Source: Anagrus nilaparvatae (lineage: Eukaryota; Arthropoda; Insecta; Hymenoptera; Mymaridae). Taken from it: DNA of 64,000 nucleotides. Within the stretch, counting starts at the first letter, position 1. The number at the start of each line of letters is the position of its first letter. This document shows, piece after piece, positions 3,226 through 61,236 of this stretch. The position numbers and the translations under genes are program-made. The notes below the pieces were generated by a model that was not told the DNA's origin, did no database searches, and was given only the letters and a program-made list of their open reading frames with translations. The stretch lies in the NCBI GenBank assembly GCA_022575985.1, contig JAKSXM010000263.1, forward strand, positions 10,210,001 to 10,274,000, written 5' to 3'.

Positions 3226-3252
3226 TCAAAGTTCTCCAAGGGAACATGAGAC

Positions 3253-6117
3253 ATGCCCGGGAAGCTGGTGCAGATTGCCCGCGAAGAAGATTCAAATATC
3301 CTCTTACTAAGCGAGCAATCTTACAACATGAACCACAAGTACTGGGTTTCTGATGACGCTCTCTGCTGCGCCATATGGCTTCGAGGCAGAGCCCAAACGT
3401 CCCTATCCCAGACAGGAAAAGGGAATTGCCATGTTTGGGCCAAGTGCGGAGAAACGACTTATATAAGTTGTTATCTCTCCCCTAACGACAGCTCGGAGGT
3501 GCTCGCTGCAAAGCTAGCCAGCATCGAGAACACGGTACGGGCGGCAACTGGTGGCGTTATCCTTGGCGGAGACTTCAATGCCAGGGCCCTAGAGTGGGGC
3601 ATGCCGACGACCAACCTAAGGGGACAAATGGTACTTGAAATGGCTGCTAGATGCAAACTAGTGGTCCAGAATAGAGGAAACAAGCCCACCTACGAGAGGG
3701 CAGGGTGGGGTATCTCTATCCCAGACATAACCTTCGCAACAGAAGCTGCATCTGGGAGAATAGGCGACTGGAGGGTGATGGATGGCTACAATGGTAGCGA
3801 TCATAACTACATTGCCTTCCGGGTAATGGAAGGAAACTCACAACGTCCTCCCTACAGGAGGCGTCCCCTTGGCTGGAACGTTTCAAAGATCGACGAGGAC
3901 AGATTTGAGGAATACCTTCGAATCGAGTCAGCGTCGATCCCCGCTTGGCGAGGAGGGGCTACAAGCCCACGAGAGGCCGAAACCCTGGTTAAGAAAGTAA
4001 CGTCTCTATTACGCGGGGCTTGCGATGCCTCGATGCCTCGCCGCAGGCCCTGGAAAGGGAGAAAACCAGTGTACTGGTGGACTCCCGAAATAGCTGAGCT
4101 CCGAAAGGAATGCCATAGGACGCGACGAAGGGCCCAACGAGCACGGGACAAACCCGAAGCTGCTGCACACTCCCAGGTACACAAGGACGCCAAACACCGA
4201 CTGGCCAAGGCCATCCGTCAAAGCAAGGCTCAATGTCTGCGTTCATTACGCGAAGACGTAAACAAGGACCCCTGGGGCCTAGGTAACAAAGTCGTAATGG
4301 GCAAATTGAACCGAGGGTCCGACAACATGATGGACGCGGCGTCGACTGAACGGATCGTCGGTGCTCTCTTCCCTGAAAGGCCCATCCGGGAAAACCCGGT
4401 TGAGGTGATATCCAGGGAGGAAGTGCCGCTGTTCAGCGAAGGCGAGATGGTCAAGGCCATAAAGGCCATGAAAAATGGCAAGGCGCCGGGGCCGGACGGG
4501 ATGCTGGCGGAAGTGCTCAAAAGAGCGGTCAAAGTAATCCCTGGTATCCTGTTAAGCATGTTCAATGCTTGTTTGGTGGCTGGAGTATTCCCAAAGCAGT
4601 GGAAGGTGGCACGTCTCGTGCTCTTGAACAAGGGCAAGAGGGGAGCCCCGGACTCTCCATCATCTTACAGACCTTTGTGTATGTTAAATACCATTGGTAA
4701 GGTGATGGAGAGCTTGCTCCGGGTAAGGCTCAGAAGGGCAATCGAGGAGGGCGGTGGTCTCTCTGAGGAGCAGCATGGTTTTCGTGAAGGGCATTCCACG
4801 ATAGACGCCATTTGGCGTGTCGTGGATACCGTAGAGGCTGAGAGGGAAAAGCGGCCTGCAATTCGCAAGGACGTCCTTCTGGTAACGCTGGACGTCAAAA
4901 ACGCTTTCAACTCGGCCAGGTGGTATGACATGATCCGGTCCCTCGAGTACGATTTTCGGATACCCAGGTATCTGGGTAGCGTACTAAAGGATTACCTGCG
5001 GGACCGGAGACTGCTCTACGACACGCTCGACGGTAGGCGTGAAAGGGTTTTGAGTGTAGGCATCGCGCAAGGTTCGGTTCTCGGACCGGACCTGTGGAAT
5101 GCCTTTTACGATGGCTTGTTGCGCGTCCACCTCCCGGAAGGAGTTTCCCTGATCGGGTACGCCGACGACGTGGCCCTGACCATAACTGGCAGGGACATGG
5201 AAGTGACCCAGGAGAGGTTGAATCTAGTCATGAGACGGATCAACCTCTGGATGGGCGATCACGGGCTCCAGCTTGCGATCCCAAAAACGGAGATCGTACT
5301 GCTGACCAGTCGAAGGGTTCCTACCGACTTCGATGTAATTATCGACGACGGCGGAAACCCTCACACGATCCGAACCAGAACATCGGTGAAATATCTGGGA
5401 GTTAAGCTTGATAACAAGCTGACCTTCTGGAAGCAATTTCAGAGGTCGTGTGAAAAGGCAGCGTCGGCCGCATCCTCCCTGTCAAGGCTCATGGCCAACA
5501 TTGGGGGACCCAAACCAGGGAAGCGAAGGCTCCTGATGTCAGTCGTCAACTCTGTCCTGCTCTACGGATCAGAAGTCTGGGCGAAGACCACAGAAACTGC
5601 CAAGTACAGACGAAAAATATCGTCGGTACAGAGGCAGGCGGCAGTGAGGATCGTCTGTGGATACCACACGGTAGAAGAGCGCGAAGTGGCTTCCACTGGC
5701 GCCCGCTTCAACTCTATGAAAGCATGGAAGAAACGATGGAAAAAGAACCAAGAGAAAAATGCCCTGTGGACGCGCAGACTGATCTCAGACCTGCAGGCAT
5801 GGATGGGACGACAGCATGGGGAGTTGGATTTCTACCTTACCCAGTTCTTAACTGGACACGGGTACTTCCGTGTCATGTTGAAGCATTGGCATAAGGTGGC
5901 AACAAAGGAGTGCTTGCACTGTCCGGGCGTGGATGATACAGTAGAGCACACATTTTTCGAATGTGTTAGCTACTTGGAGGGGCGCCCGCCCTTCCCGATT
6001 TGGAGGCCGGAGACGGTGGTCCCGGAAATGCTACGGAGTTCCGAAAACTGGAACAAAGTAGCAGAGTACGTAAGGACCACCATGTTGCAGAAGAAGGAGG
6101 AGGGCTTTCTATCGTAG
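3253..6117 (+). CDS. R1-clade ORF2: endonuclease, reverse transcriptase, C-terminal zinc knuckle
   Basis: A 954-residue protein that would nick target DNA and copy the element RNA. The endonuclease spans residues 1-190, with LLLSEQ (17-22, metal-ligand Glu), GDFN (106-109) and SDHN (182-185). The reverse transcriptase spans about 380-720, with GKAPGPDG, VTLDVKNAFN near 545, AQGSVLGPDLWN near 607 and the catalytic GYADD near 636. Near 887-904 lies the clade's CCHC knuckle (CLHC, then HTFFEC). ATG 3253 is not the natural start: the normal beginning (MIKVLQGN) lies at 3222 in another frame. Comparison with copy 2 shows that copy 1 lacks about 11 bases near 3274, which shifts the frame. Downstream the frame is open to 6117, so this is a young copy. 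Confidence 0.93.
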   Translation: MPGKLVQIAREEDSNILLLSEQSYNMNHKYWVSDDALCCAIWLRGRAQTSLSQTGKGNCHVWAKCGETTYISCYLSPNDSSEVLAAKLASIENTVRAATGGVILGGDFNARALEWGMPTTNLRGQMVLEMAARCKLVVQNRGNKPTYERAGWGISIPDITFATEAASGRIGDWRVMDGYNGSDHNYIAFRVMEGNSQRPPYRRRPLGWNVSKIDEDRFEEYLRIESASIPAWRGGATSPREAETLVKKVTSLLRGACDASMPRRRPWKGRKPVYWWTPEIAELRKECHRTRRRAQRARDKPEAAAHSQVHKDAKHRLAKAIRQSKAQCLRSLREDVNKDPWGLGNKVVMGKLNRGSDNMMDAASTERIVGALFPERPIRENPVEVISREEVPLFSEGEMVKAIKAMKNGKAPGPDGMLAEVLKRAVKVIPGILLSMFNACLVAGVFPKQWKVARLVLLNKGKRGAPDSPSSYRPLCMLNTIGKVMESLLRVRLRRAIEEGGGLSEEQHGFREGHSTIDAIWRVVDTVEAEREKRPAIRKDVLLVTLDVKNAFNSARWYDMIRSLEYDFRIPRYLGSVLKDYLRDRRLLYDTLDGRRERVLSVGIAQGSVLGPDLWNAFYDGLLRVHLPEGVSLIGYADDVALTITGRDMEVTQERLNLVMRRINLWMGDHGLQLAIPKTEIVLLTSRRVPTDFDVIIDDGGNPHTIRTRTSVKYLGVKLDNKLTFWKQFQRSCEKAASAASSLSRLMANIGGPKPGKRRLLMSVVNSVLLYGSEVWAKTTETAKYRRKISSVQRQAAVRIVCGYHTVEEREVASTGARFNSMKAWKKRWKKNQEKNALWTRRLISDLQAWMGRQHGELDFYLTQFLTGHGYFRVMLKHWHKVATKECLHCPGVDDTVEHTFFECVSYLEGRPPFPIWRPETVVPEMLRSSENWNKVAEYVRTTMLQKKEEGFLS

Positions 6118-10207: not shown

Positions 10208-11680
10208 GACAAAAAAAACCACCACATTTCAAAGGGGAGCGTTGTCAACAGCTGCAGTTATGGCATTTTTGCTGTAAGTAACATAATAGAATCAGAATAT
10301 GATTATATTTTTAAAGAATTTCCAGAAATTATTGGACTGGCTCAAAGTCAAGGCATTGCCAAAACTAAGGTAGCGTACTATATTGTAACAAAGGGGCCTC
10401 CAGTTGCTGAACATCCACGACCACTTGGTCCGGAAAAACGTGAAGCCACTAAAAAAGAGCTAGACCTCTTGCTCAAATGGAAATGGATTCGACGATCATC
10501 TAGCCCATGGGCAAGTCCGATCCATCACGTGAAGAAGTCAAATGGCGATGGTAGGAGATTATCGTTCCCTAAATTCTAAAATAGTTCCAGACAAATATTC
10601 TATACCTAATGCTTTAGACTTTGTTAACATGCTTCATGGGAAAAAGATTTTTTCTACAATAGATTTGGAGCGTGCATACCAACAAATTCCAATGGCCCAA
10701 GAGGACATACAAAAAACCGCCATTAAGTCTCCGTTTGGCAACTTTGAATACCTCGTTATGCCTTTTGGACTGACAGGAGCATGCCAAACTTTCCAAAGAT
10801 ACATTGATGAAGTACTGGGTGGCCTTGACTTCGTTTTTGCATATATTGACGACCTGTTCATCGTATCATCTACAGCTGAAGAGCACAAGAAACATTTAAG
10901 AATCATTTGCGAAAGATTAAAAAAATATGGTTCAATTATTAATAAAAACAAATGTGTTTTAGGTAAACCACAAATCGAATAGTTGGGATAATTGGTAAAT
11001 AGTTCAGGTATACTGCCACAACCAAAAAAGGTCCAATTCATTCAAGATTTTCCAAAACCAACCACGGTAGTGGAATTGCAGTGGTTTTTAGGTATGATTA
11101 ACTTTTACAGAAGGAGCATACCTAAAGCATCTCAAGCCCAAATGCCTCTAATTCAATATACAACAAACAGTAAGAAAAATGACCGTACACCAATTGAGTG
11201 GACACCTGAGGCAGAAGAGGCTTTTAATAAATGTAAAAACGGGTTAGCAGACGCCGCCCTACTTGTTCACCCATCAGTCAAGGCCAAAAGACGACTTGTC
11301 AAGGACGCGTCAGATACGGAAATGGGTGCAGCAATCGAACAAGAATCAGAAGATGGTTTTTGGAAGCCACTAGCTTTTTTCTCGAAAAAATTCAATGAAA
11401 CTCAACTAAAGAAGTACAGTACTTACGACAGGGAGTTGCTAGCAATACGCGAGAGCATAAAACACTTCAAATTTTGGTTAGAAGGGATGGACTTTGAGGT
11501 TCACACAGATCATAACCCGTTAACGTTCGCCTTTGACCAAAAATCAAACTGTGCTTCACTGAAGCAAAGAGGGAAGAGATCTTAGATTCTTAGATTTTAT
11601 ATCGCAGTACACAACAAAAATTGTACATATTCCTGGCCCGGAAAATTCAGTAGCAGATGCTTTATTAAGAATCAACGCTA
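10208..11680 (+). pseudogene. Ty3/Gypsy reverse transcriptase and RNase H
   Basis: The RT region runs from about 10310. It contains STIDLERAYQQIP, VMPFGLTGACQTFQR and the catalytic YIDDLFIVS near 10840, followed by a stop at 10981-10983. The thumb (LGMINFYRRSIPK) and RNase H (STYDRELLAI, FEVHTDHNPLTF) read on from 10992. In-frame stops at 10207 and 10981 and a frame loss near 11580 kill the protein. Domain order PR-RT-RNaseH-IN identifies Ty3/Gypsy. Confidence 0.9.
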
Positions 11681-11685
11681 TTCAA

Positions 11686-13186
11686 ATGCCAACAGAAGTC
11701 GATTACTCAGAACTGTCTGAGGAAGAGCAAAAAGATCAAGATCTTCAAAAATTTATAAAATTGACAACATCTTGCAAATTTGAAAAATTAAATTGGGGTG
11801 GAACTCAGACACTTATTATTTTTGAAACATCAATTGGTAAAATGAGACCATTCATTCCAAAAATTTTGCGGCAACGAATTTTTGACCAAATTCACCGACT
11901 ATCACATCCAGGTGGACAAACAACCTTCAAAATGGTTCAGAAAAGATACTTTTGGCCAAACATGCGAATGGAAGTAATAAAATGGGCAAAAACTTTCATA
12001 GATTGTCAACAGTAAAAAATCAGCCGACAACAAAAAAATAAAGTCAGAACCTTCAAAGCACCAGAAGCTAGGTTTGATCACATTCATCTGGAAATAGTTG
12101 GGCCTATGCCTAGTTCTAATGGATATCAATATTGTTTAACTGTAATAGATCAGTTTCTAAGGTGGCCTGAAGCATTTCCAATTGTAGACACCAATGCTAA
12201 CACAGTGGCTAAAACACTATACAGCGGTTGGATCTGTCGTTATGGGACACCACTTATTTGTACCACGGATCAAGGTTCTCAATTTGAAGCCTTATTTTTT
12301 AAAGCCTTATTACAGTTTGCAGGTTGCCAAAGAGTCCGCACAACAGCTTATCATTCAGCAGCGAACGGCATGGTAGGACGTCTACACCGTGTCATGAAAG
12401 CAGCGCTAATGTGCCTTGGTAAAAAAGAAAATTGGGTTGAACTCCTACCTACAGTCATGCTAGGGCTCAGAGCAAGTATTAGGGAGGACGTCGATGCATC
12501 CCCAGCATAATTCGTGTTTGGAAAAACATTGAGGTTACCAGGCGAATTTTTCTCTTGTGGAGATTTTTCGCCAGATCCTCAAATTTTCATCGAAAGCTAT
12601 CGAGTACACATGCGAGAATTACAGCCTATTCCAGCAGCACATCATCATAAAGAAAAACCTTTCGTTTTCAAGGCACTAGGAGAATCATCACACATTTTCT
12701 TCTAAAGGAAGACACAGGATCGCTTGATAGACCGTATGAGGGTCCTCATAAAGTCATCCAACTAAGGTCAGACGTCGTCTAAGAAATTGAACGCAATGGA
12801 CAGGCAGTAAACGTAACCACCGAAAGGTTAAAACCAGCCTTCACGTTAAGAATCCCAGAAAATGGAACTGATAATCAAAATGCATCAGCAAACTCAAGCA
12901 ATCAAAGTTATCAGTCCAAATCCCACAAATAATAATAATAATCAAAAAACAAGCGAACATGGTAATAAATTACACGGCGACCACAGCTATGCGAAAATAG
13001 TACAAAATTTTCGATAGAACCTACAACAGTTCACAAAAACCAGCCAACAACTACTCAGCCAAAGGGTATATTAACAAAATCGCAAGAAGGGAACACAGCT
13101 CCAGCAATTAGCTCAACTCAAGCAGAAGTTCCATCATCTAGACCGCAGCTAAGAACGTACCCAGCTAAACGAAAAGTAAATATTAC
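11686..13186 (+). pseudogene. Ty3/Gypsy integrase, decayed catalytic triad
   Basis: The HHCC zinc domain is seen at 11890-12020 (H and H around HRLSHPGGQ; only part of the CxxC remains, followed by a stop). The catalytic core starts near 12075. The first acidic position reads Glu (HLEIVGPMP) where the family has Asp. The second is TDQGSQFEA. The third, normally in a VERLHR-type motif, reads VGRLHR, so the catalytic Glu is lost. A stop interrupts at 12508. The C-terminal tail continues, with stops, to about 13186, where Penelope sequence begins. Enzymatically dead. Confidence 0.88.
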
Positions 13187-14440
13187 ACTTTCATCCTGGT
13201 TGTTATTTTTCTTGATTTTATCAGAATTATTCATATCATTTTCAATATAGGTAGGAGGATTTTTTATTCTTACTTGTCTAATAGGTCTTTGATTATATGA
13301 TTCTGGTTTATCAAGATTTTTTGCCGTTTTTTCTTTTTTATATTTTTCATTGATTAATGCATCAATTGGGGCTCTGTGTTCAGAAATTCTAATGCCAACT
13401 TGACGTTTTGATTGGCCAATGTAGGTAGCTGGGCTATCTTGACAATCAAACTTGTATATGACTCCACAGCATTTTTCTTTTTCAAGTTTGTCTTTGGCTT
13501 TGATAACTATGTGGGTGAGGTTGATGACAATCATTGGGATAGCAATAATATTGTGCTTTCTTAGGCAATTAGATAAATTTTTATAGAACCCTTCTACGTA
13601 AGGAATGTAGACTTTGGGTTATGGAAATTTTCATTAAATTTTGATGTTAATGTTCTTTTGTATATCATTACAGTTGTTTTTATTGATGTTATTAATTTTT
13701 CTGTAATGTAAAGTATCATGTCTTTTTTGTATGTACATCAATGAATTTTTTTGGATAACTATTGTTAAGAAGAAACTGTTTGACTACAGAGAGGTTTTTG
13801 TTATGGAAATTTTCATGTGAAAGTAAAATGGCCTTATCTACTAGGCAAAAAACCATTCCAATTTTTTGATGTTTTGTATGTACAGAGTTAAAATTGATGA
13901 ATCTTGAAGAGAAAGTTGGTTTCCTATACCAATCATAAGTTACTCCGTTATTTTCTCTGATTAATAGTACGTCTAAAAAACTTATTCTGTTATTATTTTC
14001 CAGTTCGTAGGTAAACTGAAGTCTAGGATGGTATTATTATATTAACACAGTTTTTGGGAATGGCGTTAATGATGTCATCAACGTAAAGGTAATAAAATGA
14101 TGGTTTAAAATCAAGCTATTTTAGACAGTGCTCTTCTAAGCCAGTCATTACAATATCAGCAAAAATAGATGAAACAGCAGAGCCCATTGGAGAGCCATAG
14201 ACTTGTTTATAATAACATTTATTGAATTGAAAATAAGTGTTATTGGTAAGAAAGTCAATAGCTTCATGTAGTTCATCAAATGGTATGATATTATTCTTCC
14301 TAATTTGATCATATCTTCTATCAAGGCCTTCTCGAACCAATTTAGTAGGTACATTGGTAAAAAGGCTTGTAGCATCAAAACTAACGAAGACGTGGTCATA
14401 AGGGATGTTTATGTCTTGTATTTTACTTAAAATAACCAAA
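13187..14440 (-). pseudogene. Penelope-like element ORF: RT piece and GIY-YIG endonuclease
   Basis: On the minus strand, 14439-14116 encodes RT motifs (FVSFDATSLFTNVP and YKQVYGSPMGSAVS) typical of Penelope-type RTs. Downstream, 13534 to about 13190 encodes a GIY-YIG nuclease (GVIYKFDCQ, then YIGQSKRQVGIRISEH). The region between (14115-13535) is the rest of the RT with frameshifts and stops. The N-terminus is missing: at 14440 the ORF joins an oppositely oriented terminal-repeat fragment. This is a known arrangement for 5'-truncated Penelope copies. The element interrupts the Gypsy integrase tail. Confidence 0.88.
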
Positions 14441-14776: not shown

Positions 14777-15079
14777 AAGTTTATTTTTCCATTCATTTGC
14801 TTTTAAAAGTAATACTGTAGCAGATTCACCACAAATACTTTTACACGTAATTCCATGACGATTTTTAAATTTTTCCAGCCACCTATTGGAAGCTTGGAAA
14901 TCATTTATTTCTGAAATCTTAACGAGTTCTAAAGCTTTTACTTGTAATATTGGGATTAGTTGTTGCCTTACTGCATAAAACCACTCATGCAGATTAGAAT
15001 CTAATTCACAAGTTACTGCCTTGAATCTTTTTTTCGCATGTTTACTTAAACCGTTACTACTCCAATTATTATTTATCAT
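14777..15079 (-). pseudogene. pogo/Tigger-type transposase, CENP-B DNA-binding domain fragment
   Basis: About 100 codons on the minus strand read as the second helix-turn-helix of the CENP-B/Tigger family, which in transposases binds the terminal repeats. Diagnostic pieces are LHEWFYAVRQQLIP and NRWLEKFKNRHGI. There is no DDE catalytic domain, so this is only an N-terminal fragment. It abuts the Jockey RT fragment directly at 15079, with no visible spacer. Confidence 0.8.
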
Positions 15080-15771
15080 TCATGTAAATGCAGAATAGTA
15101 GTGGCCCCAACACAGAGCCCTGAGGAACGCCAAGATTGACGTCACGAGACTCAGATAATGATGTTTTAGAAATCACTCTCAATTGTCTACCCTCAAGATA
15201 GGACTTAAGCCACATGAATGCATTCTTAGAGAAGCCTATTTCTTTTAATTTTTTCAGTAGTTTAGTAGGGGAGACGGTGTCAAACGCCTTACTGAAATCG
15301 AACTGAAGCAGAATGGTAATGAGTCTTTTGCTCATCCCCACTCTAATATCCTCAGTCAATTTCAGCAATGCAGTCTCCGTACTACTATACTGCCTAAAAC
15401 CAGTCTGTAGTGGGCCAAGAATGTTGCCGTTTTTAAGAAACTGTGTGATTTGATCGTGGGCTAATTTTTCTAGTACTTTAGAGAGGAAACATAATAAAGC
15501 AACTGGTCTAAAATCTGATGGTAAGGATGGAATTGTGACCTTTTTTATAGCAACAAGCATGGAAGTTTTCCAAAGTAAGGGAAAAAATTCCAGTTTTAAG
15601 GGATTCATTAAATATCTGAACTAGATAGGGACCAATTGATGGAAGAGATTTTGCAATATTACTGTGGGGAACACCATCAGTTCCCTTTGCCTGCGACTTA
15701 AAGTGAGCAACAGCTAAAACCACATCATTAACAGAAACCTCATGAAATTGAAACCCATTATCCTCTATCAA
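15069..15771 (-). pseudogene. Jockey-like non-LTR reverse transcriptase fragment
   Basis: Minus-strand reading in two frames with one shift near 15580. It includes GTDGVPHSNI, LSKVLEKLAHDQI, GPLQTGFRQYSSTETAL, DFSKAFDTVSPTKLL and GVPQGSVLGPLLFCIYMND. It stops just before the catalytic YADD motif, where the Tigger fragment begins. Only the fingers and first palm motifs remain, so it cannot be active. It differs from the Jockey-like elements at 1-1885 and 17830-19105. Confidence 0.88.
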
Positions 15772-37639: not shown

Positions 37640-40372
37640 TGACAGGGAAACTATTTAGTTGCTGGTAGTAAATCATCTATCAGAAAAACCAGATTTCCAA
37701 CTTGGATATTTTTCACAGGAGTATGCCAACGATAGATTTTCTGTAGATGATGAATATATTCTTTGGACCACCTATTCCAAAAATGATCACGCATATTAGT
37801 GATTAATTTAAAATTGTTAGTCAAAGAGGATTTAGATTGTAAGTCAGAATGAACTTCTGGGTACGCATTTATTAGACCACCTATTAAGAAATGTGCGGGA
37901 GTAAGAAGTAATAAATCGAAAGGATCATTACTTTCGCTCGGAAAAGCGGCCTTGATTTGAGAAACGCTTTTACTTGACAGAAAAATGTAGATATATCTTC
38001 ATAAGTTAGTTGTGGCTCACCTATGATCTTTTTCAAGTGTGACTTTATAGATTTTGCTCCTAATTCCCATATTCCTCCGAAAAGTGGCGAAGATTGTGGT
38101 ATAAAACTCCAAGTTGTATCTTCAGATACGAGAGCATAAGACACCTCCTTATAATGTTAAAGCTTTTGTTAACATATTTACTTATTCAGCAGCGGTACCT
38201 TTGAATTTAGTGGCGTTATCGCTGTACATCTTTGAACAAGGACCTTTTCTGGAGATAAACCTTTTGAAAGCTGCAATAAAACTTTGAGTACACAAAGATT
38301 TAACAACCTCCAGGTGTACTGTCTTGGTCACTAAACAAACAAATATGTAACCTTTAATATATTTAATGCCTCTACCAGAAGATGCTCTTAACCGAAATGA
38401 CCCAGCGTAATCCACATAAGAAATGAGGTTTTAAGAAATCGTTTCTCAGGTTTAAGACGCACTGCGAGAAACTTCTCGCAGTAATGGGTCAACTGACCCA
38501 TTACTTGCCCAGCAGTTCTTGCATGATACTTAGTACAAATCACGCATTTTCTCAGCACTGAACGAATGTAACTCCAACCTCGTAAAATCCAAAACCGTTG
38601 TAATAAAATGTTTCTTGTTAGCTCTTAACCACCATGTAAACATCTCAGATGAGCTTGTTGTACTATAGATTTCGCAATTACTGTATTTTTAGCAACAATA
38701 AAAAGATGTTTTTCGTTATTTATAAGGCAGAAACGAATGACGAACTCGTCCACCTATTCTAATGCAACCTGAATCAAAAAATGGTTTGAATGATAGTAAC
38801 GAAGAGGTTTTTCATATTTTTTTTATTCTTTTTTATTTATTTTATTTTATTTACTTTATTCTCTAGGGAAAGAAGAATGTTGAGATATTTTAGATAGATC
38901 TCTTATATAGAGCAATATCTAATTCTGTATTTCACAAATTTATAGTTTTAGGTAGGTTTGTAGTTTTTAATACTCTTAAGAAATATGCTACAACTTTAAT
39001 TAGCGTATTTACATTAGAGAATCTCTCGAAAAGATCAAAGACTTTACCAGTGACAATAGTGTTTATATTCGATATAGATTTGATTTATCTTAGACTCATT
39101 ATATTCAAATTCTCTTGCGGGCCAAGCTTCATTGGATTGTACTAATCATGTTGGACTTTGCCACCACAAAAAAGGCTTCGAATTCAGGGGCAGCGATACC
39201 TCTTGTTGCAACATCAGCTTGATTGCATTTTTTAGGAACGTATCGCCAATCAATCTGAATTAAAGAATTTTGGATGGAAGCTACCCTATGAGCTATAAAG
39301 GGTTTCCATTTAGACTTAATTAATGTCAAGACCACAGATGAATCAGACTATCCAAAAACATTTACTTTTTCATTTTTTAAGTATAAGCTGGGAATTAGTT
39401 TATTAGCTAATAATACTAAAAGTGCAGCAGCACATAGTTCTAGACGAGGTATATATAATCCTTTAATAGGTGCTACTCTTGTTTTGGCTACTAATAACGA
39501 AGATGTTTTATTATCACCATTTTGCTCTAACGTAAATTACAGCAGCGTATACACTCTCAAAAGTATCTGTGAAGTAATGGAATTCTATTTCAGAGGTTTC
39601 AAAAGTTGATACCGATCGACCAATAGTAATTTCATTTAGGCAAGGTAGAGAAGATCTAAACTCAATTCATTTTTTAGCAATAGAAGTGGGCAATTCAGAA
39701 TTCAATTCAAAATTAAGTAACCAAAGATCCTGTATTAAGATTTTATCATCAATTATAACAGGTGCAAACAATCCGAGTAGATCGAACAACTTTGAAATCT
39801 CAGAAAGTAAAATTCTTTTATTTATATATTCATTGTTTCTTGCTTCTTTACTACCCCTTATATTGAATGAATCTAAATGTGGTGACTAGACTACACCTAA
39901 TGTCGTTACAGAATCAGATTCCTTTATAAATACGTCATTAGATTTTTCAGCAAGAGCAGAACAATTTAGCGAGAGGAAATCCCCCTAAATTTAAAAGATT
40001 TATAAGTTCATTTTTAATTTTTTGAGCTAATCTTTCATCATCTGCACCCTAAAAAATGTCATCTACATAAGTACGTTCATTTCAAGAAACGTTCATTTGA
40101 AGATGCAAGAAGAAAATTACGTCCTTCATCTTCAACTATTTGTTGTTTACATTTTAATGCAAGATAAGGATTACAGGCCTGACCAAACATTACAACTATT
40201 ATCTAATAATCAGTAATTTATTCACTAGGAGAATCTCTCCAAACCATTCTTTACCAATCCAGTCTTCAGGATAAACTTCAATTTGGCGAAACATTTTTAC
40301 TAGGTCTGCCGTGAAAACTATTTTAAAAAATCGCCATCGAGTTAAAATGACCCATAAATGCCATCTTAAAAG
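37640..40372 (-). pseudogene. pol: BEL/Pao pol relic (RT end, RNase H, integrase)
   Basis: Minus strand, in order. RT motif FFKIVFTADLVKMFRQIEVY at 40330-40260. RNase H-side RLELCAAALLVLLANKLIP near 39450 and WRYVPKKCNQADVATRG near 39220. Integrase zinc region (HLRCLHGG, then CVICTKYHARTAGQVMGQL) at 38660-38480. Integrase core WITLGHFG-type start, then HLEVVKSLCTQSFIAAFKRF and YSDNATKF at 38420-38200, PLFGGIWELGAKSIKSHLKK near 38080, and C-terminal FWNRWSKEYIHHLQ and IQVGNLVFLIDDLLPATK at 37800-37650. This order and these motifs are diagnostic of BEL/Pao. Many stops and frameshifts. The RT N-terminus is cut where R1-clade copy 2 begins. Confidence 0.88.
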
Positions 40373-42230
40373 GCATTCCACAGGTCCGGTCCGAGAACCG
40401 AACCTTGGGCAATGCCCACACTCAGAACCCTCTGACGCCTGCCATCGAGCGTGTCGTAGAGCAGTCTCCGGTCCCGTAGGTAGTCCTTTAATACGTTACC
40501 CAGATACCTGGGTATCCGGAAATCGTACTCGAGAGACCAGATCATGTCATCCCACCTGGCCGAATTGAAAGCGTTTTTGACGTCCAGCGTTACAAGAAGG
40601 ACAACTTTGCGAATTGCAGGCCGCTTTTCCCTCTCAGCCTCTACGGTATCCACGACACGCCGGATGGCGTCTATCGTGGAATGCCCCTCACGAAATCCAT
40701 TCTGCTCCTCGGAAAGGCCACCGCCCTCCTCTATGGCTCTTCTCAACCTTGCCCGGAGCATGCTCTCCATCACCTTTCCGATAGTGTTTAACATGCAAAA
40801 GGGTCTGTAAGATGATGGAGAGTCCGTTTCTCCACCTTTACCATTGTTTAAGAGCACGAGACGCGCCACCTTCCACTGCCTTGGAAACACTCCCGCCACC
40901 AAGCATGCATTAAGCATGATTAACAGGATACCAGGGATTATTTTGACCACTAGTTTGAGCACTTTCGCTGGTATCCCGTCTGGCCCCAGCGCCTTGCCAT
41001 TTTTCATGCCCTTGATGGCCTTCACCATCTCGTCCTCACTGAATAACGGCACTTCCTCCCTGGGTATCGCCTCTACCGGGTTTTCCCGGATGAACCGCTC
41101 AGGAAAGAGAGCGCCGATGATTCGTTCGGTCGACACCGCGTCCATCATGTTGTCAGATCCCCGGTTCAACTTGCCCATTACGACTTTGTAACCAAGACCC
41201 CAGGGGTCTTTGTTTACATCCTCGCGTAATGAACGCAGGCATCGAGCCTTGCTTTGACGGATAGCTTTGGCCAGCCGGTGTTTAGCATCCTTGTGTTCCT
41301 GTGAAAGTGCAGCAGCCTCGGGCCTGTCCTGTGCTCTCTGCGCCTTTCGTCGCGTCCTGTGGCACTCCTTGCGGAGCTCCGCTATTTCTGAAGTCCACCA
41401 GTAAACTGGCTTTCTCCCTTTCCAGGGCCTTCGAAGAGGCATAGAGGCGTCACACGCCCCTCGCAATAGAGATGTTACTTTCTTGACTAAGATTTCAGCC
41501 TCGCGGGGACCTGTAGCCTCTCCATGCTAAGCGGGGACGGACGACGACTCCAGTCCTCGTCCATCTTTGGTACATTCCAACCCAAGGGACGCCTCTTGTA
41601 CGGAGGCCGTTTGGAGGTTCCCTCAAGCACCCGGAAGGTGGTGTAATGATGGTCGCTACCATTGTAACCATCCATCACCGTCCATTTGCCGATTCTCCCA
41701 GACGCACATTCTGTTGCAAAGGTTATGTCTGGAATAGAGGCACCCCAACCTGCCCTCTCGTAGGTAGGCCGGTTTCCTCTATTTTGGACCACTAGTTTGC
41801 ATCTAGTGGCCATTTCCAGTACCTTCTGTCCCCTAGGATTGGTCGTCGACATGCCCCATTCTAAGGCCCTAGCTATAAAGTCACCAGCAAGGATAACGCT
41901 TCCAGTTACCGTCCAGACCGTGTTCTCGATGCTGGCCAGCTTTGTAGCCAGCACTTCTGAGCTATCGTTTGGGGAGAGGTAGCAACTTATATAAGTTGTC
42001 TCCACGCACGTGACCCAAACGTGGCAATTGCCTTTCTCTCTTCTGTTCAAGGACGTTTGGGCTCTACCCTGGAGCTATATGGCGCAACAGCCAGTGTCAT
42101 CGGTTAGCCAGTACTTGTGGTTCATGTTGTATGATTGCTCGCTTAGTAAGAGGATATTTGAAGAGGATATTTGACGGGCAATCTGTTCCAACAAAGCACC
42201 AGCTTCCCTGGCTTTATTCATGTCCCTTGT
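40373..42230 (-). pseudogene. R1-clade ORF2, copy 2, broken
   Basis: The endonuclease starts near 42230 (REAGALLEQIAR, then SSNILLLSEQ). It has an in-frame stop near 42078, just upstream of the long frame 42050-41487, and a frameshift near 41510. GDFN is mutated to GDFI, removing a metal/phosphate-contact Asn, so the nuclease would be inactive. From 41466 to 40366 an open frame encodes the linker and RT motifs 0-5 (GKALGPDG, NGFREGHST, VTLDVKNAFN, AQGSVLGPDLWN). The frame's last codons cross into BEL sequence. Confidence 0.9.
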
Positions 42231-43652: not shown

Positions 43653-43979
43653 GTAAGTTATTACCTAATAACTTGAATATAATTTTGAAAATTTTGTAGT
43701 AGTTAAATAAGAAATTTTATACATTCGATAGTAAATTAATATTATTTTAATTTTAACGACCTTTGACGAATGAAAGATTTTATATACTTTTAATCATCAT
43801 TATACTGCTTTTAACTATTTACATATGAAATACAATGTATTTTCATACTATGTAAAATCAGTTTTTAAATAATTTTAAAAAAATACTAGATCTTTTTGTA
43901 AATAATTTTTATAAACTTTTTTAAGCTAATTAAAGCTTAAAAGGTGCTAATTCTTGAAGAAAAAAATGTCCATCATGTG

Positions 43980-44051
43980 GTCTCCAGGAGGGTTCGAACT
44001 TCTAACCTTATGTTTTAGCCACATACGCGCTACCACTTGCGCCATGGAGAC
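43980..44051 (-). tRNA. tRNA-like block 1 (anticodon position CTA)
   Basis: 72 bases on the minus strand: acceptor GTCTCCA/TGGAGAC perfect, D-arm GCGC/GCGC, anticodon stem TATGT/ACATA perfect, loop GGCTAAA, T-loop TTCGAAC. A-box and B-box are recognisable. Position 33 is G, not U, and the T-stem (AGAAG/CCTCC) is mismatched. Geometry gives CTA (amber-reading), but a working tRNA is doubtful. Confidence 0.55.
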
Positions 44052-44400
44052 GGACACCCCCTAAGACAATCAAACACACTTTTATCCTTCAAGAACGGCA
44101 ACCATTTGGTCAAGTGCCTATGATAAGGAAGAAATTTTATACATTCGATAGTAAATTAATATTATTTTAATTTTAACGACCTTTTACGAATGAAAGATTT
44201 TATATACTTTTAATCATAATTATACTGCTTTTAACTATTTACATATGTAATACAATGTATTTTCATACTATGTAGAAGCAGTTTTAAATAATTTTTAAAA
44301 AAATACTAGATCTTCTTGTAAATAATTTTTATAAACTTTTTCAAGCTAATTAAAGCTTAAAAGAAGCTAATTCTTGAAGAAAAAAAATGTCCATCATTTG

Positions 44401-44472
44401 GTATCCAGGAGGGTTCGAACTTCCAACCTAATGTTTTAGCCACATACGCGCTACCAATTGCGCCATGGAGAC
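44401..44472 (-). tRNA. tRNA-like block 2 (anticodon position CTA)
   Basis: Same layout as block 1. The acceptor 3' strand is TGGATAC, which breaks one pair, and the anticodon stem's 3' side reads ACATT. The T-stem is improved on its 5' side (GGAAG). Probably a diverged pseudo copy. Confidence 0.5.
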
Positions 44473-56578: not shown

Positions 56579-57540
56579 TTGTTTAATTATTCATAAAAAT
56601 TATTTATTTATTTATTATATATTTTTTTTGAAAAATTTTTTTAAATTATTATTAGATTTTTTTTGAAAATTTTTTTTTTTTTATAAAATTTTTTTGAAAC
56701 TTAATTACTTATTAAAAAATTTAATATATTTATATATTTTTATTTAATATTAAAAATAGTTTAAGATAAAAATAAAAAATCGATGGCGCCGACGGGCTGC
56801 GGTGGAAGAAAAATGGCAACCCAAAAATAATTTAGGAATAATTTATTTTCCGCATTCCTTCCATCACAATATCGTAGATTTGATACTTAATTTTTTCAAA
56901 TTTTTTCTAAGAATATGACATATTTGGCATATTGACGTATTAAGCTCATTGTTTGAAGAACCTTAGTGCCAGCTAATTGGCAGCGTATTTAAATTGTAAA
57001 ATTTTTTTTTTTAATTTTTGAATACTTTAAAATTTTTTTCTTAATTTTATAGTTTTTTTAGAACATTGTAAAATAATTATTTTTACTAGCTGATTGGCCT
57101 CGCGATGCTCGGCTTAACCAAATAAAAAATCTTGTGCATTAATTTTTTTATATTTTGATCATATGTGTTTAGTTATAATAAATTTTATCATACATGATTA
57201 AAAAGCAATTCATTTTTACTTAAAAATGAATGAGAACAAAATTAATTTTATACCTCTAAATTTATTAATAAAAAAATGTTATAATTCATATAAAGAAAAA
57301 GTTATATTATTATTTATAAATATGTATAGCTAATGAGGTGTATTTTATAACATTAAGAATTATTAATAATAAATAATAATTTAAAATAGAATATAGTAAT
57401 ATGCAGATTTTTTAACAAAATTTGCATTTTTTTTTCATATTTTAGACAATTTATATTTAAATATTTTCTATTTTCATATTCATGACAACTGATATTGTAG
57501 ACAATCAATATGAATTTTACTCTAGAGTGAAATATTAATG
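56579..57540. other. A+T-rich region with a foldback-family fragment
   Basis: At 56875-56995 TTTGATACTTAATTTTTTCA, GGCATATTGACGTATTAAGC and AACCTTAGTGCCAGCTAATT match the big foldback near 27870. A short patch CTAGCTGATTGGCCTCGCG (57089) resembles element ends but has no partner that I can identify. No gene. Confidence 0.55.
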
Positions 57541-57699
57541 TATAATACTTTATTAATTCGTTCCTTTCATAAATTTAACTTAAAAGATATTATATATTGG
57601 TCAATATGGAACATAAAAATAACAATATAATTATTGCTTTATACAAAAATTTGATGGAAATTATTTGTCAGTCTTATTACTGACCTAAAAGATTTTAAA

Positions 57700-57775
57700 T
57701 GATTTATTTCGGCTCTGTATAGTAGTACGAGCCATCATCAGTAAAGTATACTACTATACTTCTTTAGATAAACCA
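57700..57775 (-). ncRNA. Type III hammerhead ribozyme, left arm
   Basis: Minus-strand mirror of the ribozyme at 58295-58370, with the same core (CTGATGA, GAAA, TC at the cleavage position). Stem III has one G-U wobble (TAAATCA in place of TAAACCA). Predicted cleavage is after the C at 57767 on this strand. Confidence 0.75.
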
Positions 57776-58294
57776 AGATGTTAAACTTTACAAAATACTC
57801 ATTTATATACCTTTAGTAAATCACTTCTCTTTCGAGAGAAATTACAGTTTATGTTCATCACTGTTCAGATAGTACAACACAATATATATACTTATATTTT
57901 GTATAGTTAGTCGAATAACAGTTTAATTACTGAAAAAGTATGACTATATTACTATACACAAAGTAGTACATATAAAATAGACAAACAAAACTGTAATTTT
58001 TTGGAATATTTTAACGAATTAATAAAGTATTATAGTTTAATTTTTTGGCATTGGGTCTTAAATATGCCAAGAAATTACAGTTTTGTTTGTCTATTTTATA
58101 TGTACTACTTTGTGTATAGAATATAGTCATACTTTTTCAGTAATTAAACTGTTATTCGACTAACTATACAAAATATAAGTATATATATTGTGTTGTACTA
58201 TCTGAACAGTGATGAACATAGACTGTAATTTCTCTCGAAAGAGAAGTGATATACTAAAGGTATATAAATGAGTATTTTGTAAAGTTTAACATCT

Positions 58295-58370
58295 TGGTTT
58301 ATCTAAAGAAGTATAGTAGTATACTTTACTGATGATGGCTCGTACTACTATACAGAGCCGAAATAAACCA
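58295..58370 (+). ncRNA. Type III hammerhead ribozyme, right arm
   Basis: Parts in order: stem III 5' strand TGGTTTAT (58295-58302); cleavage-site C 58303; stem I TAAAG (58304-58308) pairing with CTTTA (58324-58328); core CTGATGA (58329-58335); one extra T; stem II GGCTC (58337-58341) pairing with GAGCC (58355-58359); core GAA (58360-58362); stem III 3' strand ATAAACCA (58363-58370). Stem III is a perfect 8-bp helix. The loops of stems I and II share 11 complementary bases. The extra T between core and stem II departs from the consensus but also occurs at 14532 and 6.5 kb. The RNA is expected to cut itself once transcribed. Confidence 0.8.
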
Positions 58371-58504
58371 TTTAAAATCTTTTAGGTCAGTAATAAGACT
58401 GACAAATAATTTCCATCAAATTTTTGTATAAAGCAATAATTATATTGTTATTTTTATGTTCCATATTGACCAATATATAATATCTTTTAAGTGAAATATT
58501 AATG

Positions 58505-58931
58505 ATTTTTTTGTTCATGAATAAGACTTTTGATATATAAAACAGCCGACAATATAGATTGAAATTTTTGTTGTATCTTCATATTGTAAACAGCCAATAT
58601 AAATTTTACTACGCAGTAAAATTTTTTTAATTTTTGTTTTTTTTATTCTTAAATTGCCGATATCTATCTTATTTCAAAGTAAAATTTTTAGAATAATTAT
58701 TAATAATTATTCAAATAAATTATTATTAAAGTTTTTAGAGTTTTTTCATATATCAAATAGCCGACAATATAGATTAAAATTTTTGTAGTTTTTTTATATT
58801 GTATGAAAATAAATATGCATTAAAAAATATACAAAATATACATGAAATATTAAAAAAATTTAACTTTATAGAAAAAATCACATTGTCTGTATAAAAAACT
58901 GCAAAAATATCAATCTATATGATCTGGTGTT
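58505..58931. other. A+T-rich spacer
   Basis: Recurring CAGCCGACAATATAGATT-like phrases (58542, 58769) and diverged relatives (57500, 58600) suggest an old short repeat. No gene. Confidence 0.5.
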
Positions 58932-60559: not shown

Positions 60560-61236
60560 CTTTAGTTTTTTCTTTATTGAAAGGATTAAACCAAAAATAC
60601 ATACTTTTATTGAAATGTTGTAATTTCAACTTTTTTATGCAAATATAGCATTGAAAAATTAGTATTGAATTTAGCAGAAAATAAACCTCAATTTAATTTT
60701 TTTTTCGTATAGTATCCCGTTTCTTAGAAAATTTGAAATAATTGTATTGAATGTAGTAGAATATATACTATTTTTAAAATTGTAATTTCAATTTTTTTTA
60801 TGCAATGATAACATTAAAATATTAGTATTGAATTTAACAGAATAAACTTCACTTACGTGTTTTTGAATATTGACCTATATTATAGAAATGTTCTAATTTC
60901 AAATATTTTTAAGCAATGATAATATTGAAATATTGGTATTGAATTTAGCAGAATATACACCGCAAAAATATTTAATCATATAGAATCAAAAAGATATAGA
61001 ATCATATCCTGTTTTATAGAAATACCATTATTTTAAATGTGTCCATGCAATGATAGCATTCAAATATATGTTTTGAATTTAGCAAAATATAAGCCACTTT
61101 AAATTTTTTTCGAATAGCAGTAGCCTGTTTTATAGTAAATTTGTAATTTCAATGTTTTTATGCAATTATATTATTTAAATATTAGTATTGATTTTAGCAG
61201 AATATACCGTTTTAATGTCGTTAAATATATTTTGCC
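60560..61236. repeat. Minisatellite of ~130-bp diverged units
   Basis: About five units recur around ATGCAATGATA(A/G)CATT and TTAGTATTGAATTTAGCAGAATATA (split here: TTAGTATTGAATTTAGCAG and AATATA), near 60640, 60800, 60920, 61050 and 61160. They are heavily diverged. Confidence 0.75.

Follow-up and report, generated by a model that had tools for sequence, protein, structure and literature searches.

A type III hammerhead motif in a gene-less, retrozyme-like element inserted as head-to-head concatemers in the genome of Anagrus nilaparvatae

We analyzed a stretch of 64,000 nucleotides (the window) from the hymenopteran Anagrus nilaparvatae (assembly GCA_022575985.1, contig JAKSXM010000263.1, positions 10,210,001 to 10,274,000) and found that a palindromic element in it, which bears a type III hammerhead ribozyme motif in each arm, is a short instance of the head-to-head concatemers that a unit of about 494 nt forms in this genome. 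We consider it likely that the element is a non-autonomous, gene-less, retrozyme-like retroelement, and that reverse transcription of its RNA circles takes place at a nicked target from two priming sites.

The hammerhead anatomy of the window motif is complete and was confirmed on the letters themselves (Table 1). The motif has the CUGANGA and GAA core, a UH 5' of the cleavage site, and three stems of which stem III is open and stems I and II are closed by loops. A preliminary description of this DNA had reported a complete type III form with its stems, its core, an 8-bp stem III and a C at the cleavage site, and had placed a second copy in the other arm (57700-57775, minus strand) that differed only by a wobble in stem III; both statements were borne out by the sequence, the minus copy departing from the plus copy by a single C-to-T change that turns a G-C pair into a G-U wobble. 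The C at 58303 we take, by the customary hammerhead numbering, to be C17, and the cut predicted from it falls where that description had put it. Two features were absent from the earlier account: an extra U after A9, and a stretch of 11 nt over which loop 1 (15 nt) and loop 2 (13 nt) are perfectly complementary. De la Pena and Flores reportedly described in 2001 an extra core nucleotide, in the same placement, in a viroid hammerhead.

Table 1. Positions of the element and of its hammerhead motif in the window
Feature	Position	Strand	Basis or remark
Left target-site duplication AGTGAAATATTAATG	57526-57540	.	Exact 15-bp direct repeat adjoining the element
Arm 1, unit positions 26-496	57541-58011	-	End A at 57541; alignment to the tandem unit
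Inversion junction at 58012, then plus-arm unit positions 475-496	58012-58034	+	Junction table
Arm 2, unit position 1 to about 456 (end B)	58035-58489	+	Alignment; boundary set by the duplication
Right target-site duplication	58490-58504	.	15-bp direct repeat
Type III hammerhead, plus copy	58295-58370	+	Sequence, descriptor scan
Stem III, 5' strand TGGTTTAT	58295-58302	+	Pairs with 58363-58370, 8 bp
Predicted cleavage site	58303/58304	+	3' of C17 at 58303
Stem I, TAAAG / CTTTA	58304-58308 / 58324-58328	+	Stem I and loop 1 together 58304-58328
Loop 1, complementary stretch GTATAGTAGTA	58311-58321	+	11 pairs with loop 2
Core CTGATGA	58329-58335	+	Second subfamily has G at position 7
Extra T (U) between A9 and stem II	58336	+	Sequence; unchanged in 73 unit rows
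Stem II, GGCTC / GAGCC	58337-58341 / 58355-58359	+	Stem II and loop 2 together 58337-58359
Loop 2, complementary stretch TACTACTATAC	58343-58353	+	11 pairs with loop 1
Core GAA	58360-58362	+	Sequence
Stem III, 3' strand ATAAACCA	58363-58370	+	Sequence; core and this strand together 58360-58370
Type III hammerhead, minus copy	57775-57700	-	Predicted cleavage between 57767 and 57766

The window was scanned with a type III descriptor (stem III of at least 5 bp, stems I and II of at least 4 bp, UH, CUGANGA, GAA, and at most one extra base). The only matches were the two motif places, and none of 200 dinucleotide shuffles matched. A covariance model of our own (R1), built from the copies and not independent of them, gave 118 bits and 115 bits (115 for the minus copy); over 21 fetched loci it found the element's copies, weaker matches on their opposite strands and only a few weak matches besides. 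The loop-loop duplex alone was calculated at -12.5 kcal/mol. A circle fold of a second-subfamily unit gave -109.6 kcal/mol versus -74.7 +/- 5.3 kcal/mol for 60 letter shuffles, a weak control from which we conclude nothing. The exact core pattern had no match in viral contigs.

Copies of the element are numerous in the assembly (488.7 Mb, 393 contigs). At least 286 matches to the element were found (40 of 327 first-look candidates scored), and a 35-nt core with up to three mismatches occurred 253 times (128 + 125), the reversed control giving none. Among the matches listed there were 40 clusters, the window's own being L001, and all were fetched; they represent 39 distinct insertions, because L053 (C171:71000-72800) and L054 (C1:9178700-9180500) share both insertion and flanks, as a segmental duplication or an uncollapsed haplotype. 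The preliminary description had named loss of the core and stem pairing in other genomic copies as a result that would speak against the motif; instead, of 59 distinct gap-free motif copies, 48 had an unaltered core and every one of the 18 stem pairs intact. When a stem pair had changed, 11 of 18 changed pairs could still pair, every one by wobble. Two subfamilies were distinguished by 25 differences over 496 positions; the motif contains a single fixed one, located at position 7, where CUGANGA allows any letter. Retention of the ribozyme among copies is good by this comparison, covariation is not demonstrated, and activity of the ribozyme appears likely from the sequence. As the earlier account had stated, the element carries no genes: the longest stop-free stretch, measured on two tripled reference units, is 60 codons.

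We next describe the architecture of the insertions, using a reference unit of 496 columns (array period 494-496) and leaving out pieces of less than 26 columns. Both orientations were present in 30 of the 39 insertions, and in 29 of these the order was strictly minus-then-plus, the lone exception being L048, with a small additional flip at its centre. Among the matches listed, nine further clusters that were not fetched also showed the two orientations within 4 kb of each other, and all nine were minus-then-plus as well. Because minus units precede plus units, the arrays are head-to-head. Of two recurrent outer ends, end A lies at unit positions 494-496 and end B at 455-472, and 23 of the 30 inverted insertions pair an A with a B; of the others, one is A+A (L047, whose second end A matches at 82% only), one is B+B and five have an end elsewhere. 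Past end A, several insertions (e.g., L033, L039 and L045) continue into GTTTA(A), with which the next unit begins, before the target DNA is reached. Sites A (TATAGTTTAATTTTT) and B (TTTAAGTTAAATTTA) are similar as judged by eye. The inversion points are spread across the unit; gaps at them measure 0 to 76 nt, and overlaps reach 25 nt. Several junction fillers copy adjacent sequence, as in L038, L067 and the C1 array, a pattern that we would expect end joining to leave. In the nine single-orientation insertions the 5' part of the unit is missing at one side, the other end being A in four, B in four and elsewhere in one. In L040 a stretch of about 1.2 kb (L040:1011-2215), perhaps a nested DNA transposon, splits one unit with a 2-column overlap in the coordinates.

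These results change how the window copy is to be read. The preliminary description had called it a palindromic element, and its arms (57573-57950 and 58120-58497) are indeed 99% complementary; the palindrome, however, is not a unit in its own right but a short form of the head-to-head concatemers, with 471 and 486 nt aligned in its two arms. The 22-bp inverted repeat that bounds 57541-58034 is the end-A sequence recurring at the inversion junction.

Target duplications were measured as the longest exact repeat between the two flanks, searched 25 nt outward and 12 nt inward. A repeat of at least 12 bp was found in 24 of 39 true pairs versus 3 of 1482 mismatched pairs, none of the three exceeding 12 bp. 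The duplications ranged from 12 to 18 bp with a mode of 13, exactly 13 bp being found in 12 of the 24. By class, 23 of 30 inverted insertions had one, versus one of nine single-orientation insertions (L042). A wider look, made with no control, gave longer repeats separated by filler in L039 (13 bp), L053 (16 bp) and L058 (14 bp), and some of the longer duplications may include letters shared with the element.

Two arrays suggest that the template was a circle. In the C1 array, with arms of 5506 and 4331 aligned nt, all units at least about 380 nt long, 19 in number, are 100% identical in either orientation, and L035 has six long units, also 100% identical, with arms of 844 and 2050 aligned nt. 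Between insertions, identity was 92.5-99.8%, i.e., 0.2-7.5% different, among the 20 that were compared. None of these identities takes account of letters inserted relative to the reference. Because the units of C1 and L035 are identical despite unequal arms, these arrays point to many passes over one circular template.

One insertion offers a clue to the enzyme. In L039, TATATGTCAGTTC followed by a run of A lies between end B and the 13-bp duplication. This 19-mer, with at most one mismatch, occurs 169 times in the genome including L039 (control, 4), and five of five other places that were fetched are poly(A)-tailed; in four of the five, the shared sequence 5' of the tail extends for about 97 bp or more, and in the fifth (L073) for much less. 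In the L039 event, to judge by these letters, copying probably started on a poly(A) RNA and then jumped to the element RNA. This fusion to the end of what looks like a long interspersed nuclear element (LINE) would name a candidate helper family; about 4 kb 5' of one poly(A) end, searched for a full-length LINE helper, held no frame of at least 100 codons.

Taken together, we propose the following mechanism, in which we infer the cleavage, the RNA circles and the helper enzyme. The type III hammerhead, stabilized by pairing of loop 1 with loop 2, would cut the transcripts of an array at one place in every unit, and the cut units would be closed into RNA circles of about 494 nt. At the target, staggered nicks in the two strands would lie about 13 bp from each other. 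One target strand would prime reverse transcription with its 3' end at site A (unit position ~496 to GTTTA), and the other strand would do so with its own 3' end at site B (unit 455-472), in a AGTTAAATTT-like stretch about 35 nt upstream. Each complementary DNA (cDNA) would follow the circle for anything between part of a turn and many turns, after which end joining, leaving small fillers, would connect the two cDNAs into a head-to-head concatemer. As helper, a reverse transcriptase of the LINE type would probably act in trans. The window copy would represent about one turn per side, and because of this it would appear as a palindrome with a ribozyme on either strand. More tentatively, the element may be a viroid-like RNA circle hitch-hiking on an insect LINE machine, with obligate dual priming on a circular template as a distinct mode of insertion, in which two sites lie about 35 nt apart, both reverse transcriptases circle many times, and inverted concatemers are the standard product; we hold this wider proposal to be possible but still doubtful. 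To our knowledge, how animal retrozyme circles re-enter DNA is an open question, and these arrays could serve as a DNA record of the start points of copying, of its repeated rounds and of priming by both target strands.

Several results weigh against this reading. The preliminary description had proposed a covariance check and had named scoring at background level as grounds for giving up the motif, and that check turned out unfavorably: Rfam reported no hammerhead over the window at the gathering threshold, nor up to E = 10 with the element or the bare motif, and its hammerhead model RF00008 had no match over the whole assembly. RF00008 was likewise silent in its 14 control genomes, and because of this its silence is weak evidence. 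A curated covariance score, which the motif does not reach, is a criterion of detection and lies outside the chemical definition of a hammerhead. Because no Rfam hammerhead model scores the motif, the case for it rests on anatomy, the shuffle control and the comparison of copies. With the letters of the minus copy, the best pseudoknot-free fold has another hairpin in place of stem I (-18.5 versus -10.1 kcal/mol), a competition that the loop-loop duplex could make up for. Among copies no compensatory double change was seen, and 5 of 12 changed loop-loop pairs could still pair. Only one of the 25 subfamily differences lies in the 76-nt motif versus 3.8 expected (P = 0.08), and 43 of 420 windows of the same length hold as few, so that, by sequence, the ribozyme is not clearly more conserved between subfamilies than the rest of the unit.

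The architecture has its own weak points. Because one of nine single-orientation insertions has a duplication versus 23 of 30 inverted ones, the nine may be broken copies instead of truncated insertions; the absent duplications weaken a side argument only. The argument for a circular template comes from the two identical arrays. In each of the 15 other insertions that have two or more long units, the lowest pairwise identity falls at 96.7-99.4%, and many pairs drawn from different insertions are just as similar; the 15 are simply older or uninformative. The link to a LINE comes from one insertion of the 39.

Other explanations account for parts of these data. The hammerhead might be a dead or never-active look-alike, the long hairpin being the conserved thing, as the missing Rfam score, the alternative hairpin in the predicted fold and the lack of demonstrated excess conservation would allow; the empty shuffle control, the presence of all invariant core letters, with the sole subfamily difference at a free position, and the large share of wholly intact copies make this unlikely in our judgment. 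About equally improbable is amplification as DNA, in the form of extrachromosomal satellite circles or other replicating DNA inserted at breaks, which would yield identical tandem units and end-joining-like fillers and has a precedent in that animal hammerheads are known in satellite DNA (PMC2837043, in the portion available). The recurrent ends A and B, the 13-bp mode of the duplications and the poly(A) LINE-like fusion in L039 point instead to RNA-templated synthesis.

A retroelement cDNA that turned and copied its own strand would also give a palindrome, and such fold-back copying suits the near-equal, near-identical arms of copies like that of the window. A self-copy, however, must mirror its arm, and many arms are unequal: L043 (113/1024 aligned nt) and L064 (1847/95) as well as C1 and L035, which are the youngest arrays seen and are not mirror images, leaving this explanation with a small probability. 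Smaller still is the chance that the element is a foldback or miniature inverted-repeat transposable element (MITE)-like DNA transposon, moved by a transposase through long inverted repeats with the hammerhead as a passenger. The nearly perfect complementarity of the arms, the 22-bp inverted repeat and the absence of genes would fit it, but the outer ends are not mutual inverses (an A is paired with a differing B in most inverted insertions), the 22-bp repeat is explained by end A at the junction, and it is not in the nature of a transposase to leave arrays of up to 19 long units, arms of unequal length, inversion points that vary and duplications of 12-18 bp.

As to known classes, that of MITE and foldback elements was rejected, the same inverted repeat being absent from the two outer ends and the duplication having no fixed length. 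An agent like hepatitis delta virus (HDV) was rejected for lack of a delta-antigen frame, which is about 200 codons long, in a unit with no stop-free stretch beyond 60 codons, and a Penelope-like element for lack of a frame for a reverse transcriptase or a GIY-YIG endonuclease. Usual twin priming of LINEs inverts part of one linear copy. The insertions described here resemble it in that, according to the parts of the reports available, an inverted insert arises there by priming from both target strands (PMC4245944, PMC2912911), and differ from it in that both strands give entire units, one or several, starting from two favored sites.

The closest relatives appear to be the metazoan non-long terminal repeat (non-LTR) retrozymes, described in the accessible portions of two papers as tandem units of about 150-450 bp with type I hammerheads and RNA-circle intermediates (PMC7229834, PMC7761336). 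Our element shares with them short tandem repeats, one hammerhead per unit, the absence of an LTR or a gene, and target duplications longer than 4 bp; unlike those so described, it has a type III motif, a unit of about 494 nt, head-to-head concatemers and two recurrent ends. We file it as retrozyme-like on its sequence, since it lacks the type I motif that marks the described animal retrozymes. With plant LTR retrozymes it shares the type III hammerhead, the non-autonomous nature and, putatively, the RNA circles, and it differs from them, as far as those same sources go, in having no LTR and longer duplications than their 4 bp; their primer-binding site was not searched for here. The pDo500 satellite of Dolichopoda crickets is likewise an insect repeat of about 500 bp with a hammerhead; that hammerhead is 49 bp long and may act as a double form, the satellite makes up about 5% of one species' genome, and the word 'inverted' is absent from the available text (PMC2837043). 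Our searches of open-licence papers turned up no description of a hammerhead element whose insertions are head-to-head concatemers.

The preliminary description had held a type III form to be unusual in a short gene-less insect palindrome, a statement to be tempered with respect to insects, as atypical type III hammerheads with a loop 1-loop 2 pseudoknot are reported from HDV-like RNAs of toad and termite and from termite and dipteran genomes, with self-cleavage in vitro for those of toad and termite (PMC7936874, as far as its available text goes). The window motif is like these in its type III order, a 5-bp first stem of helix I, pairing of helix I with loop 2 and its occurrence in an insect genome, and is unlike them in that their pseudoknot is GCCR/YGGC and ours 11 nt long, with no delta-antigen-like frame. 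The same text reports the termite genomic motifs as isolated and the fly ones as 'in preparation'. Pairing between the stem I and stem II regions can substitute for the usual hammerhead contacts, and compensatory mutants showed its relevance (PMC3088659, in the part available), those mutants being of a type II ribozyme and the window element being type III. The present element would extend type III hammerheads in insects from isolated motifs to a high-copy element.

Other repeats were also noted in the window. LINE-type reverse transcriptase frames lie at 3250-6117 (+), 15069-15620 (-) and 40366-42074 (-); Pfam RVT_1 was found on the former two and an endonuclease domain on 3250-6117, the frame at 40366-42074 being assigned by resemblance only. 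A frame at 13118-13618 (-) with CGVIYKFDC...YIGQSKRQVGIRISEH looks by eye like a GIY-YIG endonuclease, as in Penelope-like elements, with no Pfam match at 0.001. An integrase zinc-binding domain (PF17921) at 11563-12015 (+) is probably the remnant of an LTR retroelement. Dispersed repeats adjoin the element at 58528-58800 and 60605-61208 and are present several times over in L072. Two tRNA-like genes (anticodon CTA), at 43979-44051 and 44400-44472 (-), are 421 bp apart and lie within an apparent tandem repeat of about 421 bp (weak spaced matches). In the assembly, one contig carries a COX1 that reads, as judged by eye, in the invertebrate code. COX1 is full-length with in-frame TGA on contigs C146 and C18, and split, intron-bearing and fungus-like by appearance on C244 and C264; because there are several different COX1 genes, sequences from more than one organism may be present in the assembly.
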